From NCBI RefSeq assembly GCF_900105075.1, contig NZ_FNSK01000003.1, positions 142,001 through 206,000 on the forward strand: a DNA stretch of 64,000 nt, written 5' to 3'. The notes under the pieces were generated by a model. The model saw nothing but the letters and a program-made list of their open reading frames with translations. It searched no databases and was not told where the DNA came from. Positions 6,615 to 23,567 of the stretch are shown here, piece by piece. Numbering within the stretch: the stretch's first letter is position 1; each line of letters starts with the position of its first letter. Position numbers and translations under genes: made by a program. Origin of the DNA: Rhodobacter sp. 24-YEA-8 (GTDB lineage Bacteria; Pseudomonadota; Alphaproteobacteria; Rhodobacterales; Rhodobacteraceae).

Positions 6615-6960
6615 TTGTCAGCCCCGCTCGTCGCGCCGCATTCGCGGTGCGACCCTCAGCATCCGGGTGACACCGCAGGAGAAAGCAGCCTTCGGCACGG
6701 CTGCCAGGCGACAGGGATATCACGGCGCGTCAGGCTGGGCGCGAGAGTTGATGCAGGCTGAATGCGGAAGTGTGCCGCGGTCGACCCGTATGGCGTCGGG
6801 GTGCCTCGGCCAGGCGGCCGCCCGCCTGCAGAACTGGAGTCAGACTCCCGGCCTCCCCGGCGACCTTGCACAGGCACTGCAGGAGATCGCCGCCGGGATG
6901 CACGAGTTGCAGAAGGGTCTGCTGGCAATAAGCACCATAGGCGATGAGGACGGGCTATGA
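6598..6960 (+). CDS. MobC-like relaxosome accessory protein
   Basis: A 120-residue protein. Its first half (SIRVTPQEKAAFGTAARRQG, then YHGASGWARELMQAE) matches the ribbon-helix-helix-like pattern of MobC accessory proteins, which help the relaxase melt and nick oriT. The C-terminal half is helical and probably mediates oligomerisation. The start lies within the previous gene, and the stop overlaps the relaxase start as ATGA, so the three genes form one translationally coupled operon. The function is inferred from this pattern plus the adjacent relaxase. Confidence 0.65.
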   Translation: MARAGDCQPRSSRRIRGATLSIRVTPQEKAAFGTAARRQGYHGASGWARELMQAECGSVPRSTRMASGCLGQAAARLQNWSQTPGLPGDLAQALQEIAAGMHELQKGLLAISTIGDEDGL

Positions 6961-8648
6961 TCGCCAAATCCATCCGCGATACGATTGTCAGCACGGGATC
7001 GGGCGCAACAATCCCCAGGCGGGACCTTGCGGCCCGCATCCGTTATGTCTGCAGCAAGGCGAGCAGCACCGGGACCCTGAACCTTGCGGGCGATTGGCGG
7101 GATGCGGCGGCGCAGATGCAGACGACCGCAGGGCTGAACGAAAGGGTCCGGCAGCCCGTGAAGCACATCATCCTGTCCTGGCCAGAGACCGACAAAGTGT
7201 CAGATGCTCAGGCGATCCAGGCGGCCCGGATGATGAACCGTGCATGTGGCGCGGCGGGCCACCAGCAGGTGATCGGCGTGCACCGCGACCGGATTAACAC
7301 GCATGTGCATATCCTGCTGAACCGGGTGCATCCGATCAGCGGTAAGACCCTGTCACTTTCACAGGATTATGCACGGATGGAGCGCGCCTGTCGCGAGATC
7401 GAGCGGCAGATGGGATGGAGCGAGGATCGCGGCAGGTTCGACGCTGTGGTGCAGGATGGCCATGTTAAACTGCTGCCGAAGCCTGCGGCGCATTGGCGAG
7501 GCAAGGTCCAGGATCGTGAGATGGGTCTGAGGCCGGATGGCCGGGGGACGAGGGGGTGTGAGCAGCGCACCGGTCTCGCATCATTGCGCGACCGGATCCC
7601 TGCGGAGATCAGACGCCGGCTTTGTGCCGGGCTTGAGCGGGCAAGTGATTGGCAGGCCCTGCACTGCCTGCTGGCGCGGGCAAAACTGGTCTACCTGCGG
7701 CATCGGTCCGGAGGCCGGATCCTCGATCAGAGCGACGGGTCGATGATGGCGGCCAGCGCCCTTGGTGCGGCCTGGGGGCTGGCGAGGCTGACAGCAAGGT
7801 TTGGCCCCTTCGCCTTTGCCCCCGAGCAGGAGCCCAGGCCACAGCCGGCCATCGCCCGCTACAGGGGGGCGGCGCCTCGGCGGGCCGAGCTGAAGGCGAT
7901 CCTCGGCCCGCTTGGCAAGATTCGTCGCGACATTGCAGAATGGCGCAAAGCACAATGGCTGCAGACCGGGCGTTACCGCCACCTCCTGCGTCGGGCGCGT
8001 GAAGGGGGCTCCAACCCGCCCCGCGATCTGACGGCGGTGCGGCAGATATGGTGCCAACCGATCGCGCAGGGCGCCGGGATGGCGCTTCCTGAACCCATGC
8101 GCCTGGCCCTGCAGGACTGCCGGGAAGATCTGAGGTTCGACGGACGTTCGGAGGCCCTGATGGCGCGTCGCAGCCGCAATGGTAGCATCATCGGATTTGA
8201 CAGGCTGTCTACCACCGCAGCCACTCCGCAGGAGGAGCAGATCCCACCCGGTTCCGTTAAGGATGGGGCTTATCGCGGGATCGGTTTGATCGGCCCCCGC
8301 GATGCGCCGCTCTGCCTGCTGGTCCCGGACCTCTTCGCCGCTGTCTCGACACGGCTGATGCCGCAGGGGGCCTCGGCGCTGATCATCGCGACGGGGCGGC
8401 TGCCGCAGCCCGGGATGGGGCTGCACCTCTTGCAGCTGATCGGGCAGCGCGGGGTCGTGTTGTGCTGCGGCAGCGATCCCCAGGACCAGCGTTGGGCAGA
8501 GCAGATGCGCCAGCTGCTGCCCCGGGCACGGCGGCATGATCTGGCCATCCGGGCGCTATGGCATGCATTCGTGTCGGGTGGGGCAGGGGTGGCACCGGAC
8601 ACGGCTGTCGCAGTGCCAGCCGCACCGCGCCCGGATGCCCGCCGATAA
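6957..8648 (+). CDS. MOBP-type relaxase (mobilization nuclease)
   Basis: A 563-residue relaxase of the PF03432/TraI(RP4) type, which nicks oriT and stays covalently bound to the 5' end during conjugative transfer. The candidate catalytic tyrosine is Tyr30 in RIRYV. Motif III is clear: HRDRINTHVHILLNRV, with the metal-binding histidines His109, His116 and His118. The N-terminal 160 residues hold all recognisable relaxase motifs. The region after about residue 400 (APLCLLVPDLFAAVS, ALIIATGRLP, VVLCCGSD) looks like a weak Toprim-like fold, as in some relaxases fused to primase-like domains, but the acidic motif is poor. No type IV secretion genes are present, so transfer would need a helper element. 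Confidence 0.85.
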   Translation: MIAKSIRDTIVSTGSGATIPRRDLAARIRYVCSKASSTGTLNLAGDWRDAAAQMQTTAGLNERVRQPVKHIILSWPETDKVSDAQAIQAARMMNRACGAAGHQQVIGVHRDRINTHVHILLNRVHPISGKTLSLSQDYARMERACREIERQMGWSEDRGRFDAVVQDGHVKLLPKPAAHWRGKVQDREMGLRPDGRGTRGCEQRTGLASLRDRIPAEIRRRLCAGLERASDWQALHCLLARAKLVYLRHRSGGRILDQSDGSMMAASALGAAWGLARLTARFGPFAFAPEQEPRPQPAIARYRGAAPRRAELKAILGPLGKIRRDIAEWRKAQWLQTGRYRHLLRRAREGGSNPPRDLTAVRQIWCQPIAQGAGMALPEPMRLALQDCREDLRFDGRSEALMARRSRNGSIIGFDRLSTTAATPQEEQIPPGSVKDGAYRGIGLIGPRDAPLCLLVPDLFAAVSTRLMPQGASALIIATGRLPQPGMGLHLLQLIGQRGVVLCCGSDPQDQRWAEQMRQLLPRARRHDLAIRALWHAFVSGGAGVAPDTAVAVPAAPRPDARR

Positions 8649-9194: not shown

Positions 9195-9269
9195 ATGGCG
9201 GGCATTGGCAAGGGCGGCAACCCTCACCAATGCCCTGACCACAACCGATCTCGTCAACGGAGACCGACG

Positions 9270-9779
9270 ATGGCTGACGCCACCTCTATCACGCCGCTTG
9301 CGGCGATTGAAGCAATGCCTGATGGCAGACCACCAGGCCAGATTCCGATCCTCTTCAGGAGGTTCCTTGACGCCCTGTCCCATTACATCGCCAGTGAACA
9401 GGCGCTCCAGGGGGGCGAAAGCATCTGGGCCTCCGCCATGCGCCCGAGGCTGGACGAGGCCGAGCGGGCCCAGACCGAAGTCACCCATCTGATCACCCTG
9501 ATCCGTCGCAGCCCGGCGCGGAGCCTCGCTCATGAGTCCATGCTGCGGCTGACGTTGCTCGCCGATTGTCTCCTTGGCGCAGAGAGCGCCGCAGAGTTCA
9601 GTGAGGCCTGTGAGCTTCTGGAGCTGCCGGGGATCGGTGGGGCGGCCATGCCCTTACCCCCTGATCCCGATATCGACGGTCTGCTGGCGCAGGGCCTCGT
9701 GCAGCTGCGTGCGCTTGCCACTCTGCACGGAAGCGCGAACGACCCTGAGGAAGACGCGCAGGGCGAGCCTTCGGGCTAA
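9270..9779 (+). CDS. Hypothetical protein of the mobilizable cassette
   Basis: A 169-residue protein with no family recognised. It is predicted to be largely helical and acidic, with no membrane segment, signal peptide or metal motif. A Pro/Asp-rich linker (LPPDPDIDG) precedes a final helix and an acidic tail (DPEEDAQGE). The start at 9270 is chosen because GGAG lies 7 bases upstream. The frame opens at 9195, but those 25 codons look non-coding. It is the first plus-strand gene beyond the RHH operator and is followed 153 bases later by the zinc-ribbon protein, so it may share regulation with that cassette. Confidence 0.55.
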   Translation: MADATSITPLAAIEAMPDGRPPGQIPILFRRFLDALSHYIASEQALQGGESIWASAMRPRLDEAERAQTEVTHLITLIRRSPARSLAHESMLRLTLLADCLLGAESAAEFSEACELLELPGIGGAAMPLPPDPDIDGLLAQGLVQLRALATLHGSANDPEEDAQGEPSG

Positions 9780-9932
9780 GCGCGTCCGGACCGTTCTCCA
9801 CATCATCCGCACAGCAGCCAAAGCAGCCCGTTCCAGCGCGCGCAGGTGAGCAGCTGTGCCCACGGCATCGGCCACAACCGGCACTCACTTCAGCATCGGC
9901 AATGGATGTCCCCAATTGAAAGAGTTCTTTCT

Positions 9933-10928
9933 ATGCCCAAAAGACCGCCAGATCCTTCCCTGAATGCCCCTGCCCTCGGAGAGGCGTCTGCTTCATGGGT
10001 AAGTGCAGCTGTCGTTACCACCGAGCCTGATGCCACCCCGTCTGCCTTGCCGACCGAGATCCCGCAGGACTGGCATCAGCTGGCCGAGGCGAAAGGGTTC
10101 TCGATCACCGCCCGCATCAAGGATCGCTTTCACCTCGAACTTCGATGCAAAACCTGCGCACAGACCCATGTCTCGAAGATTTACACCTTGCGCACAGCAC
10201 AGCCGACCTGTCCGGGCTGCATGGCCGACCGCCGCGTCACCGAAGCGCAGGAAGCAGGTCTGGTCTGGCTGCGCGGCGACCCGGACAATCCGCATTACAG
10301 CTTCTATCGTGCCCCCTGCGGACATGAGCTGCGCCGGCAGCATGAACTGATCCTGCGTGTCGGGCAGGGGCGAACAGGGGTGCGCTGCACCATCTGCCTT
10401 GCGCAATCCGATGCGGAGAAGGCGGCTCTGCGGGGCTGGGTCCTGATCGGAACCGATCCGCAGGGACGTGCCGGTTACCGGCTTTATGGCCATTGTTGTG
10501 GCGCGCGCCAAAGCATCACGCGGCAGAACATGCAGACTGGACGCTTCGACTGTGCTGAATGTGGTCCCGGATGGGCGGCGGCCCCCAGCTGGATATATGT
10601 AATGGCCTTCACCCTCTCCAGCGGCAGGCAAGTTGTAAAACTCGGCTTTGCCCGGGACCCGGACTCGCGCCTGAACTGGCAGCTGCAGCAGGATCGCGAC
10701 ATGCCTTGCAGCATCCTGCGCAGGCTGCCGGTTGCCAGCGGTCATGTCGCGGTGCGGATCGAGAAACGGTTGCATGCGCATCTGCGCCGCCGCCATCCGA
10801 CAGATGTTGTGGACCCTGCACATTACCAGCGGCAGATCCGGGTGCGATCCGAGGTTTATGAGGCCTCCCTCACGCCCGAGATCATGCGCCTGCTCGATGA
10901 GGTCGGGCGGCAGGGTTCAGCCGGCTGA
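9933..10928 (+). CDS. Multi-zinc-ribbon protein with C-terminal GIY-YIG-like (T5orf172) domain
   Basis: A protein of about 331 residues. From this start, three cysteine-rich modules follow in tandem: Cys72/Cys75 with Cys93/Cys96; Cys129-His131 with Cys152/Cys155; His187/Cys188/Cys189 with Cys207/Cys210. The spacing suggests three zinc ribbons. The C-terminal part (about 219-331) starts SWIYVMAF, then VVKLGFARDPDSRLNWQLQQ, and later IEKRLHAHLRRR. This is the layout of T5orf172/Mug113-type GIY-YIG relatives found in phage and plasmid proteins. Nucleic-acid recognition and possible cleavage are inferences. The start is uncertain: GTG 9846, ATG 9906 and ATG 9933 are possible, and none has a good ribosome binding site. 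It lies upstream of the FtsH-like protease gene in the same direction. Confidence 0.7.
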   Translation: MPKRPPDPSLNAPALGEASASWVSAAVVTTEPDATPSALPTEIPQDWHQLAEAKGFSITARIKDRFHLELRCKTCAQTHVSKIYTLRTAQPTCPGCMADRRVTEAQEAGLVWLRGDPDNPHYSFYRAPCGHELRRQHELILRVGQGRTGVRCTICLAQSDAEKAALRGWVLIGTDPQGRAGYRLYGHCCGARQSITRQNMQTGRFDCAECGPGWAAAPSWIYVMAFTLSSGRQVVKLGFARDPDSRLNWQLQQDRDMPCSILRRLPVASGHVAVRIEKRLHAHLRRRHPTDVVDPAHYQRQIRVRSEVYEASLTPEIMRLLDEVGRQGSAG

Positions 10929-11055
10929 GGGCGCAGGCTCCGCACAAGCCCCGGCACCCATCCCTCCATGACCCTGGCTCCAGTGCCCTGGACCTGCCCG
11001 TTTCGGTGCCATCCCACCTGGATGCGCCAGCCCTTTCGCAAAGGACCAACGCTCC

Positions 11056-13326
11056 ATGCCCGCTACAAATCCACCCGATCCAATCTGGTTGCCCCTGGCC
11101 GAGAGCTTCCTGACCCGGCTCAGGACTGGCGTTTCCATCGCCGATGTTACCCGCGGTCAAGCCGAGAGTTCTGCCCCACAACGAAGCAACACGCGATTGC
11201 CTGCACAACGGGTGACACAGACGCAGGCGCAAAGCGACCGGCAGGGCCACAGCTCCCTTGCAACGGGCAAGGGCGCAAAGGCACGGGCGGCCCCCAGGCA
11301 GGCCAAAGCCCTGCAAGACGTCTCCCCGATCCTGCCCCCGATCCCGATGCGTGATCTGTTCTGCACCCTGCGCCTGGCCGCGACATTTGGCACGCAGGAG
11401 GCCTTCGATGCCATGCTCGCCCCTGGCAGCCTCACTGTATTGCACGGGCTTGCCCCGGCGGAGATCGATGTTTTGCTGCGGGTGCTGCCCGCCGGCCTCT
11501 TGCCTCCTCGCTGGCGCCTGGAGGAGGATATGCTGTCCCTTCCCCCCGTAACGAATGTGCTGGCCACCGTCGCCGCCAGGACCTCGGAGATTTCGGGCGA
11601 CCAGCCCCAGGTGCGTCGCCGCCAGATGCAGTATATCGACGAGGCGATCGATGCCGGGCTGCCGATCCTGATCCTGCTGATTGACGGGATCCATCTGCCG
11701 CCGACACTCACCGCAGAGATCGAATGCGACCGCCCCCTCGCCCCGATCAGTCGAGAGATCCTGATTGCCGGTTTGCACCATAGCCATGGCGCGCAGCAGA
11801 GATTTTCGCCTGCGACGCTACCTGGCCTGCTGCCGGAAAGCCACGATCTCGCAAGGTTGAGCTGGACCACGCTGCGCCTTGCCCTGCGCGAACCAGATGC
11901 GTATGCGGTCGCGCGGCGGCTGGCCGAGCGCACTGCCGCTCTGCGGCCGAATGCGCCACAGCGCGAGCCGGCCGCCCCGGACCTCGATGCGATAACCGGC
12001 GATAGCCCGGCCCTGCGCGCCGCTCAGCGTCTGGCGTCAGATATAAACCTCTGGCAGGCCGGAGAGATCGACTGGGGCGAGCTCTCGCATTCATTGCTGC
12101 TCTACGGTCCACCGGGCACCGGCAAGAGCTGGCTTGCAAGGGCCATGGGCAACACGGCCGGGGTCCGGATAATCGAGGCAAATTTTGCGCAATGGCAGTC
12201 AGCGGGGCATCTCGGCGACATGTTGCGCGAGATGCGCCAGGCCTTTTCCAGGGCGCGGCGGGCGGCGCCGTGCTTGCTTTTGATCGACGAGATTGACGCG
12301 GTGGGCTCGCGTAACAATGGCGATCTGCATGGGATCAGTTACCGCACGCAGGTGATTAACGCCTTCCTGTCCGAGCTCGACGGGCTGTCACGGAACCCCG
12401 GGGTGATCGTGATCGGCACCTGCAATGACCCTGGCCGCATTGACCAGGCGGTGCTGAGGCCTGGGCGCTTCGACCTCAAGATCTCTATGCCCCTGCCCGA
12501 TATGGCCGCAATCACCGGCATGTTGCGCCAACATCTGGCCAGCGATGCGGGGCGGATCGACATTGCGGCCCTGGCCCGTCGGATCGTGGGCACCAGTGCC
12601 GCCGCCATCGATGCTGCTATCCGCGCCGCGAGGTCGGACGCCCGGGCGGCGGGCCAAAGCCTCGATGCCGGGCAAATCCTCGGCCATCTCGGGATCGCGC
12701 CCGCTGACCCCGCACAGGCCGCCAGTGATGCCCGCACCGCCGTCCACGAATGCGGCCATGCCATTGTCGCGGCCGCCTTGCTGCGCGGCGTGCCGCAACG
12801 ACTGGTGATCCTGGCGGATGGCGGCGAGACGCATCGGCTGTCGGCTAAGACAAATCACCTGCTCTGTGATCTGCTCGATGAGATCGCCTGCTCCATGGCC
12901 GGGCGCGCGGCCGAGCATCTGCTGATCGGCACGATCTCAGTCGGTGCCGGAGGGGATCCGGCCTCCGATCTCGCAATCGCGACCCGGATTGCGCTGATGA
13001 TCGACACCCGTTTCGGTCTGGGAGGGGAGGGTGCGGTCTGGACAGACGCCCCGGCTCACATTTTGCTGGCCGACCCGCTGCGCCGCGCCCGGGTGGCACA
13101 GCGGCTGGCCGAGGGCCAGGGCCGCGCCCTGCAGATTCTCACCGCCCACCGCGAGCTCCTGACGCAAATGGCCCGCGCCCTGCAGGAGGCGCGCGAGCTG
13201 AACGGTGCTGCGCTGCGACACTGGCTCGATCAGATCTGTTTCGGTGAGGTGCTGAGGGGCGTGCAAAGCGCTGGAGCCGGTTCTGCAGACGTCGGGCGCC
13301 CCTCACACGACACCGGATCCGACTGA
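11056..13326 (+). CDS. Soluble FtsH-like AAA+ zinc metalloprotease
   Basis: A 756-residue AAA+ protein. The ATPase module shows Walker A GPPGTGKS (351-358), Walker B LLLIDEID (Asp411-Glu412) and the second region of homology CNDPGRIDQAVLRPGRFD with arginine fingers. The C-terminal region has the M41 motif HECGH (564-568), followed by GAGGDPASDLAIATRIA, where FtsH carries its third zinc ligand. FtsH normally has two N-terminal membrane helices. Here none is seen; a roughly 300-residue N-terminal region of unknown fold replaces them, including a hydrophobic strand PILILLIDG that may be a degenerate NTPase lobe. It is therefore probably a cytosolic ATP-dependent protease whose substrate is set by the N-terminus. 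A purine-rich site lies about 9 bases before the ATG. Confidence 0.85.
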   Translation: MPATNPPDPIWLPLAESFLTRLRTGVSIADVTRGQAESSAPQRSNTRLPAQRVTQTQAQSDRQGHSSLATGKGAKARAAPRQAKALQDVSPILPPIPMRDLFCTLRLAATFGTQEAFDAMLAPGSLTVLHGLAPAEIDVLLRVLPAGLLPPRWRLEEDMLSLPPVTNVLATVAARTSEISGDQPQVRRRQMQYIDEAIDAGLPILILLIDGIHLPPTLTAEIECDRPLAPISREILIAGLHHSHGAQQRFSPATLPGLLPESHDLARLSWTTLRLALREPDAYAVARRLAERTAALRPNAPQREPAAPDLDAITGDSPALRAAQRLASDINLWQAGEIDWGELSHSLLLYGPPGTGKSWLARAMGNTAGVRIIEANFAQWQSAGHLGDMLREMRQAFSRARRAAPCLLLIDEIDAVGSRNNGDLHGISYRTQVINAFLSELDGLSRNPGVIVIGTCNDPGRIDQAVLRPGRFDLKISMPLPDMAAITGMLRQHLASDAGRIDIAALARRIVGTSAAAIDAAIRAARSDARAAGQSLDAGQILGHLGIAPADPAQAASDARTAVHECGHAIVAAALLRGVPQRLVILADGGETHRLSAKTNHLLCDLLDEIACSMAGRAAEHLLIGTISVGAGGDPASDLAIATRIALMIDTRFGLGGEGAVWTDAPAHILLADPLRRARVAQRLAEGQGRALQILTAHRELLTQMARALQEARELNGAALRHWLDQICFGEVLRGVQSAGAGSADVGRPSHDTGSD

Positions 13327-13349
13327 GCCGGAGCGGTCATCCGCGACGC

Positions 13350-13514
13350 ATGCCCCCGCGGCCCGGAAGCCCATTTGATCGCTGGGTCGAAACGGATCGT
13401 CAGCGTGTCGTGGAGTGTGAGCACATCGTTGCAGAACATCCGCCCATTGCCCTGCAGCTGGCGGTTGCCGAACGGATCATACCGGGCCGCCGCTCCCCAG
13501 GGTTAACAAGATGA
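13350..13514 (+). CDS. Small ORF after the AAA+ protease
   Basis: A 54-residue frame beginning 23 bases after the protease stop. Its composition is protein-like, with GC-rich third positions and a helical amphipathic stretch DRQRVVECEHIVAEHPPIAL. The ribosome binding site is weak (GGAG, distant). No family is recognised. It could be a real small cassette protein or a decayed remnant. Confidence 0.35.
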   Translation: MPPRPGSPFDRWVETDRQRVVECEHIVAEHPPIALQLAVAERIIPGRRSPGLTR

Positions 13515-22410: not shown

Positions 22411-22776
22411 ATGTCATCACGCGGTCCCTACCGGCGACATTCGGCGCCGTTCAAGCTGCAGCTGTGCCAGGATATCCGCGCCGGGGTGATCGGTCGGCGC
22501 GACGCGCAGCGCACGCATCATATCTCGGCCAACCTCATCCACATGTGGCTGACGCAGTTCGACCGGGGAGAGCTGACCAGCGAAGAGGCCGAGGCGAGCG
22601 TCATTGCCGAATACGAGGCGAAGATCGCGGCGCTGGAGCGCAAGGTCGGACAACTGACGATGGAGCTGGATCTTGTCAAAAAAACATCGCGCCCGCCACA
22701 CGGTGCCAGCAGCGGGAGATCCTCCATCGTCACCGGCCCGGGGGGTGCTCTGTCAGACGGGGGTGCAAAGCTATGA
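22411..22776 (+). CDS. IS3-family transposase OrfA
   Basis: A 121-residue frame. A helix-turn-helix (RRDAQRTHHISANLIHMWLT) is followed by a leucine-zipper-like coiled coil (AKIAALERKVGQLTMELDLV), the normal OrfA layout. The coding run of seven A residues (22678-22684) followed by C sits at the end of the zipper. A -1 slip there would join OrfA to the OrfB frame to make the full transposase. The stop overlaps the OrfB ATG as ATGA. Confidence 0.9.
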   Translation: MSSRGPYRRHSAPFKLQLCQDIRAGVIGRRDAQRTHHISANLIHMWLTQFDRGELTSEEAEASVIAEYEAKIAALERKVGQLTMELDLVKKTSRPPHGASSGRSSIVTGPGGALSDGGAKL

Positions 22777-23567
22777 ACCTGCCGCGGAGCACGCTCTACT
22801 ACCGCCCGACGACTTCGGAAGCTGGGCTCACCGATGCCGAGATCACCGCTATCGTCGAAGACATCCAGGACGAGTTCCCCGTCTACGGCTACAGGCGGGT
22901 GACGCATGAGCTGCGTCGCCGCGGACTTGTGGTGAACCACAAGAAAGTGGCGCGGATCATGCGGTTGGCGGGGCTCGGGATCAGACCGCGAAAGCGCTAC
23001 GTGCGCACCACGGACAGTCGGCATGACAACCCGATCTACCCGAACCTCTATCGCAACACTATCCCACGCTGCCTCGATCAGGTTTGGGTCGCGGACTTCA
23101 CCTACATTCGCGTCACGCAGGGCTTTTGCTACCTCGCGGTCATCCTCGATGCCTGCAGCCGGAAGGTTGTGGGTTACGCCCTGTCGCAGCGCCTGGACAC
23201 GCCGCTCGCCCTGGCGGCGCTGGAATCCGCTGTCGCAAGCAGGCGGCCGCCGCCCGGCTGCATTCACCATACGGACCGCGGCGCCCAATACGCGTCTCAA
23301 CTCTATCGCGAAGCGCTGGAGGCTGCCGGTCTGCGCGGATCAATGAGCAGCGTCGGCAATCCCTACCACAATGCTCAGGCGGAGAGCTTCATGAAGACGC
23401 TGAAGGTCGAGGAGGTCTATCGCGCAGGTTACGAGACCTTCACCGACGTCGCCCAGCGATTGCCGATCTTCATCGAACAAATATACAATACCCGAAGACT
23501 GCACTCTGCCCTCGGCTACCGTCCGCCAGAGGAATTCGAAACGCTAATCGCCCAGCAGGCGGCTTAG
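22773..23567 (+). CDS. IS3-family transposase OrfB (DDE integrase)
   Basis: A 264-residue catalytic subunit with an rve integrase core. The DDE residues appear in WVADFTYIRV (D), HHTDRGAQYAS (D) and NAQAESFMKTLK (E), with the downstream YNTRRLHSALGYRPP typical of IS3 OrfB. It can start at the ATG overlapping the OrfA stop, or be made as an OrfAB fusion by -1 frameshifting at A7C. The open frame continues upstream to 22464 in the same phase, as expected for the fusion. It appears intact. Confidence 0.92.
   Translation: MNLPRSTLYYRPTTSEAGLTDAEITAIVEDIQDEFPVYGYRRVTHELRRRGLVVNHKKVARIMRLAGLGIRPRKRYVRTTDSRHDNPIYPNLYRNTIPRCLDQVWVADFTYIRVTQGFCYLAVILDACSRKVVGYALSQRLDTPLALAALESAVASRRPPPGCIHHTDRGAQYASQLYREALEAAGLRGSMSSVGNPYHNAQAESFMKTLKVEEVYRAGYETFTDVAQRLPIFIEQIYNTRRLHSALGYRPPEEFETLIAQQAA

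Follow-up and report, generated by a model that had tools for sequence, protein, structure and literature searches.

A recurring mobile-element cassette of Rhodobacterales with a soluble FtsH-type protease and an apparently exchangeable nuclease

What does a soluble relative of FtsH do beside a putative zinc-ribbon nuclease on a mobilizable element, and do these genes belong together at all? The locus that raises this question lies in Rhodobacter sp. 24-YEA-8, in a 64,000-nt stretch of contig NZ_FNSK01000003.1 (positions 142,001–206,000) that we call the window and whose coordinates are used below. There, a divergent ribbon-helix-helix (RHH) gene on the minus strand is followed by a leader, a gene that we call orfA, a zinc-ribbon/GIY-YIG gene and a soluble AAA-M41 gene:

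6957–8648, plus strand: relaxase (MobP/TraI-like), context; PF03432 106.3 bits, TraI_middle 34.6 bits
8972–9154, minus strand: RHH repressor-like gene; sub-threshold RHH_1 similarity in Pfam
9200–9235, plus strand: leader hairpin 1, 9 + 4 base pairs; covariation, model R1 76.7 bits
9247–9265, plus strand: leader hairpin 2, overlapping the Shine-Dalgarno sequence (GGAG, 9259–9262)
9270–9779, plus strand: orfA, predicted all-helical protein of 169 aa; homologues upstream of the nuclease, AlphaFold model
9275–9311, minus strand: antisense promoter-like pattern within the start of orfA; TT/TG/TA pattern across 56 leaders
9933–10928, plus strand: protein of 331 aa with three C/H-rich zinc-ribbon-like repeats and a GIY-YIG (T5orf172/MUG113-like) domain; invariant residues
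11056–13326, plus strand: soluble AAA+ M41 (FtsH-type) protease of 756 aa; Pfam AAA and M41 domains

A preliminary description had drawn a cassette over positions 9270–13514, behind an RHH operator and next to a relaxase. Its three long co-directional ORFs (orfA, the zinc-ribbon/GIY-YIG gene and the AAA-M41 gene) are present. The RHH gene, sub-threshold in its similarity, lies upstream, just outside that span, and is itself preceded by the relaxase. The mobilizable context holds; the relaxase falls under the NF041893 cut-off (171.8 of 250). The fourth proposed member, a small ORF of 54 aa at 13350–13514, had to be dropped. It is not conserved, and the best tblastn match over the fetched loci (E 0.09) was antisense within the GIY-YIG gene of locus L042. 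Overall, the gene set and its recurrence stood and the small ORF did not. That description did not mention that the nuclease can be swapped, that the leader is structured, or that recombinase and tRNA-Met genes form part of the setting. Further downstream in the window, IS3-like transposase frames were seen by eye in the ORF list (22411–23567).

The cassette is a real unit that turns up repeatedly on the mobile DNA of bacteria from soil and sea. A tblastn search of 72,556 plasmid records with the GIY-YIG protein matched 17, in Paracoccus, Sulfitobacter, Antarctobacter, Tritonibacter and Rhodobacter. Annotation gives the order RHH-orfA-GIY-AAA in Paracoccus alcaliphilus, P. yeei and Rhodobacter CZR27, and orfA-GIY-AAA in P. 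aestuarii and Antarctobacter. Among 295 genomes of the family, the AAA-M41 protein (E ≤ 1e-60) was found in 23 and the GIY-YIG protein (E ≤ 1e-8) in 19; both occurred in 14, against about 1.5 expected from the two rates. A single-sequence search placed orfA in six of these genomes. When plasmid and family-genome loci were examined with profiles, giving 32 GIY-YIG loci tallied by hand, orfA stood beside the nuclease gene in 22 of the 31 with room for it, AAA-M41 in 26 of 32, and RHH was near 27 of 32. The orfA profile missed the other 9 of 31 in this diverse set; at one of the GIY-YIG loci, L041, a small ORF is annotated in its place.

A further set of 62 loci (61 from genome contigs and one from viral contigs) was fetched with close relatives of the window's GIY-YIG protein, a query that favours the full cassette. 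Here orfA lay directly upstream of the nuclease gene in 56 of 59 testable loci, with no profile match in L150, L151 and L175 (the last a split gene). AAA-M41 lay downstream in 49 of 56 by script rule, or 50 of 56 with L173, whose frames overlap. Of the 54 loci where this could be judged, 34 had an RHH homologue pointing away from the cassette. The preliminary description had held that rare co-occurrence of the genes would speak against it; co-occurrence was strong both in these 62 loci and in the 295 family genomes. GIY-YIG frames with no downstream AAA-M41 were found at L037, L041, L085, L103 and L106, and at L150, L151, L171 and L181.

The GIY-YIG protein of the cassette was found almost only in Rhodobacterales. 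By record title, almost all of the 62 loci belong to this order, and the exceptions seen were Maritalea mobilis, which a tree tool placed in Devosiaceae, and one MAG named only to Alphaproteobacteria level. A class-wide sample of 385 genomes, in which only a handful of the same family were among the matches listed, gave the window's own genome alone with the GIY-YIG profile at E ≤ 1e-10.

The two larger proteins bear out the earlier labels "zinc-ribbon/GIY-YIG-like" and "soluble FtsH-like". For the first, 9933 is the best start and 10928 the end. Twelve C/H ligands and residues Y222, K236, G238, R246, E277 and H281 are invariant in 30 aligned rows, and we take the Tyr, Lys-x-Gly, Arg and Glu to be the catalytic-type residues of GIY-YIG. 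The protein shares these residues and their spacing with the T5orf172 and MUG113 GIY-YIG proteins. It differs from them in the three zinc-ribbon-like repeats that precede the domain, and it scores below both Pfam cut-offs (PF10544, 17.4 vs 20 bits; PF13455, 16 vs 22.3 bits).

The protease passes both of its Pfam cut-offs, with 110.9 vs 21.2 bits for AAA (PF00004) and 41.3 vs 29.9 bits for M41 (PF01434). In an alignment of 39 rows (the window's protein and 38 of 41 candidates), H564, E565, H568, D638, K357, D411, E412, R468 and R471 are invariant, in line with the intact AAA+ and HExxH motifs already reported. HECGH occupies residues 564–568, and we assume that H564, E565, H568 and D638 form the HExxH motif with its third metal ligand, Asp, and that the others are Walker A/B residues and arginine fingers. 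AAA and M41 domains, HExxH plus Asp, and the fold over residues 303–731 are common to this protein and FtsH-type AAA+ M41 proteases. In contrast to FtsH, it has no membrane anchor (highest 19-residue Kyte-Doolittle mean 1.65, vs 2.67 in the chromosomal FtsH of the same genome), and residues 96–300 form a predicted soluble alpha/beta domain. It is also far under the FtsH equivalog cut-off, reaching 167.2 of 600 bits with TIGR01241 (NCBIfam) over profile positions 197–594 only.

Protease genes of this type also occur without the rest of the cassette. A second AAA-M41 in the same genome (L074; G000 C2:127777–129666) is 41% identical, and the 20 kb fetched around it held no GIY-YIG or orfA match. 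AAA-M41 without a nuclease or orfA match was also found at L091, L094 and L095. By eye, a transposase-like reading frame lies just upstream of the L074 gene. In strain NT-25 (L112:5729–8465) the AAA and M41 parts are two adjacent genes. On plasmids of Rhizobium, Bosea, Shinella and Methylorubrum (L109, L111, L114, L118), soluble AAA-M41-type genes of Hyphomicrobiales lie near metallophosphoesterase genes, not nucleases.

The middle gene of the cassette is its most changeable in kind. In seven loci (L075, L077, L078, L100, L115, L116, L119), a PD-(D/E)xK-like protein sits between orfA and AAA-M41, and none of these also carries GIY-YIG. Four were scanned with PDDEXK_5 (PF11645) and none met the gathering score: L119 came closest, 0.8 bits short (25.3 vs 26.1 bits, E 1.7e-5), followed by L100 (16.7) and L115 (11.9), with no match for L077. 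At L090 a sub-threshold CoiA-like protein occupies the slot. In the plasmid copies L039 and L040, which have no orfA match, a tyrosine-recombinase domain (PF00589, over cut-off) lies upstream of AAA-M41. A quick tree of 84 proteases requires a minimum of 11 switches in partner label, vs 20.2 when the labels are shuffled. A tree of 34 rows, picked from the 84 after the first tree and including six of the seven PD-(D/E)xK-linked proteases, rejected a single clade of these proteases (AU p 1.2e-6). Judged by these alignments and trees, the nuclease has been repeatedly replaced by an unrelated fold within a conserved gene order.

Of the three proteins, OrfA has diverged most, with 15–36% identity to the window's copy, compared with 29–55% for GIY-YIG and 31–50% for AAA-M41. 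Its best start, 9270, is preceded by GGAG at 9259–9262. AlphaFold predicted six helices (mean pLDDT 85.4), and the predicted structure gave no confident match in the PDB. Where defined, orfA dN/dS ranged from 0.12 to 0.68 across 15 close pairs, the highest value resting on very few changes. The ratios were 0.08–0.24 for GIY-YIG (14 pairs) and 0.14–0.30 for the protease (15 close pairs, where defined), and by this measure purifying selection acts on nuclease and protease. Because synonymous distances differ between the genes of one pair (for example L125/L126), the cassettes seem to recombine internally.

Upstream of orfA, the leader appears to be structured. We collected 56 distinct leader sequences from loci with both RHH and orfA matches. 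Hairpin 1 was examined in 20 ungapped rows, a subset picked by length and motif: 84.6% of cells are paired and 9 of 13 pairs have changed on both sides. Covariation was 0.465 vs 0.191 (sd 0.021) in shuffles, 0 of 500 as high, and slid versions gave at most 0.171. Hairpin 2 shows conservation more than covariation: across 13 rows, 75.6% of cells are paired, and one of six pairs has changed on both sides.

Model R1, built on this leader, finds it once in the window's genome, plus its own reverse complement, and at 24 places in 20 of the 295 family genomes. Coordinate comparison identified 17 of these places as loci already known. At L210, L211 and L213, RHH or leader stands with orfA at a contig end; at L208 and L209, RHH stands with a small ORF, again at a contig end and with no orfA match. 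L207 has RHH, leader, small ORF and orfA followed by a relaxase-like frame, without nuclease or protease. One place, L212, looks false. Contigs G247 C11 and C20, G046 C31, and G211 C19 and C24 end about 600 bases or less from the leader, as if repeated cassettes had broken the assemblies.

The start of orfA carries a second signal. Some wobble bases are fixed whatever the amino acid: T at codon 2 (55/56), T at codon 6 (56/56) and A at codon 14 (55/56). For comparison, T occupies 18.5% of wobble positions in codons 11–60. Read on the minus strand, the first 14 codons contain TT, a 17-nt spacer, TA preceded by TGn, then 7 nt and A. TT, TG and TA occur together in 46 of 56 leaders, TA in all 56 and A in 55. 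Because the −10 element has no conserved T at position 6 across the 56 leaders, we call the pattern only promoter-like. It suggests that an antisense transcript covers the leader, in the manner of plasmid control RNAs; alternatively, the pattern may serve protein binding or act as single-stranded DNA. The leader shares with the R1162-type plasmid antisense RNA (RF00043) a weak but full-length match at 9199–9277 (24.3 bits, E 0.031). It differs in lying far below the gathering score of 55 and in that the matched strand is the sense strand. The match fits the antisense reading but is no proof of it.

The surroundings are those of mobile DNA. In 28 of 111 pooled loci, with duplicates between collections left in, the same strand carries a large serine recombinase gene downstream, 1.4–6.6 kb from where the anchor gene starts; among neighbours, four were confirmed by Pfam and one by annotation. 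A tRNA-Met was found in 13 of the 23 recombinase loci scanned and a tRNA-Arg in one more, and in the six compared (L038, L075, L128, L133, L155, L167) the tRNA overlaps the 3' end of the recombinase. Relaxase-like clusters, recognized by eye from motifs, occur in 11, 7 and 5 loci, and annotation names relaxases in two plasmid loci.

Linkage to defence genes, which the preliminary description would have counted as support, found partial support only. With PADLOC, the 118 neighbours of 17 cassettes, complete or partial, matched 207 models, and an equal number of control ORFs (118) drawn from the same genomes matched 33 (ORFs called longest-first). These figures count models rather than proteins because one protein matches many models. 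Thirty neighbours were followed up, six of them with matches, and known defence genes were found in four of the 17 neighbourhoods: MzaE (L079), PD-T7-1 (L101), NsnB/OLD-like (L102), and a type I methylase with DRT UG13 (L103). An SspA/DndA match at L106 was set aside as probably a housekeeping cysteine desulfurase. The control ORFs include a type III R-M pair. Recombinase domains (PF07508) occur in four of the 118 neighbours and are absent from the 25 families listed for the control. Annotation also places a SIR2 protein and a SAVED/nucleotidyltransferase pair beside two plasmid AAA-M41 copies.

Two known defence systems come near to parts of the cassette. SNIPE is a single membrane-anchored GIY-YIG anti-phage nuclease with DUF4041 (PMC13190303). 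With SNIPE the cassette shares a GIY-YIG effector, and a defence role may be proposed by that analogy only. It differs from SNIPE in adding orfA and the protease, and its GIY-YIG protein is neither membrane-anchored (highest hydropathy mean 0.98) nor equipped with DUF4041 (no match in a Pfam scan). The second system, IetAS, is a defence pair of a separate AAA ATPase and a serine protease partner. The AAA domain of the cassette matches IetA models (E 6.3e-26) in the AAA region only. In contrast to IetAS, the protease here is an M41 domain fused to the AAA domain and a nuclease is part of the operon; every PADLOC match of AAA-M41 with E under 0.01 falls within its AAA region, and we do not assign the cassette to IetAS.

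What, then, could the cassette be for? Our tentative first choice, resting on comparative sequence data, is a mobile immunity or competition cassette of plasmids and integrative elements: defence or competition best explains the exchange of nucleases and the divergence of OrfA. A more specific form, which we regard as doubtful, is a new element-borne immune module with a fixed framework, made up of the RHH repressor, a leader governed by antisense RNA, OrfA as a rapidly diverging helical sensor and the soluble FtsH-type protease. Unrelated nucleases would be exchanged into this framework as effectors, and the protease would be the trigger, releasing or clearing the nuclease. In the broader, preferred reading, the RHH protein would repress the operon. 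The leader would hold translation low, with a hairpin that covers the ribosome site and may encounter an antisense RNA from within orfA, since the nuclease would presumably be harmful when unchecked. OrfA would sense or bind a feature specific to an invader or rival element. A hexamer of AAA-M41 would unfold and degrade a protein partner, which may be OrfA, the nuclease's restraint or a DNA-bound protein of the invader, and this would free the nuclease, or clear its way, to cut foreign DNA. Several observations count against defence. The protease is dispensable, being missing beside several GIY-YIG genes, and AAA-M41 also occurs alone elsewhere. The Hyphomicrobiales copies lie near metallophosphoesterases, and the orfA profile misses nearly a third of the diverse loci. 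Few neighbourhoods were sampled (17), the control also held an R-M pair, and mobile elements cluster in defence islands anyway.

Control of the element itself is a somewhat unlikely explanation that would account for the recombinase, relaxase and orfA-relaxase cases. AAA-M41 would degrade a repressor or a regulator of excision or transfer, much as the ImmA protease acts on ImmR; the nuclease would aid transfer, integration or the clearing of rivals, and orfA and the leader would tune element genes. The downstream serine recombinases (28 of 111 pooled loci), tRNA-Met (13 of 23 scanned), relaxase-like clusters (11, 7 and 5 loci) and the tyrosine-recombinase domain upstream of AAA-M41 in L039 and L040 all argue for it. 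So does L207, where a relaxase-like frame follows orfA and both nuclease and protease are missing, which implies that orfA may serve the element rather than defence. But the nuclease varies in fold within an otherwise constant set, as a fixed transfer gene would not, the types of mobility gene vary between loci, a member of this serine-recombinase cluster was called in none of the remaining 83 pooled loci (a number of which are truncated), and defence genes lie near several copies.

An addiction module of the toxin-antitoxin kind is improbable. The nuclease would be the toxin, orfA the antitoxin and RHH the autoregulator, with AAA-M41 removing OrfA when the element is lost or attacked. A small variable protein directly before the nuclease, an RHH regulator with an antisense-like leader, and the location on plasmids and elements would suit such a module, but the putative antitoxin has no profile match in 3 of 59 (L150, L151, L175) and 9 of 31 GIY-YIG loci, the RHH gene is divergent and outside the operon, and the protease is missing at some loci. 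Very improbable is a selfish nuclease of the homing type, in which the GIY-YIG or PD-(D/E)xK enzyme would spread the cassette by cutting empty sites, with the protease as a passenger. GIY-YIG folds do occur in homing enzymes and the setting is mobile; against this, orfA and AAA-M41 stay constant around changing nucleases, and the protease is under purifying selection.

In one open-access library, searched by titles and the starts of abstracts, we found no paper describing this gene set; within that library, the combination of exchangeable nucleases with an M41 protease that has left the membrane is undescribed. The leader, with its covarying hairpin and the antisense promoter-like pattern in the wobble bases of orfA, is a new candidate regulatory RNA that can be tested; the parts of the cassette are small, and Rhodobacterales strains suited to laboratory work are available as hosts. 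If the cassette does confer immunity, it would make regulated proteolysis, carried out by an FtsH-type machine, a further means of defence, in a system whose effector is swapped while sensor and protease stay.
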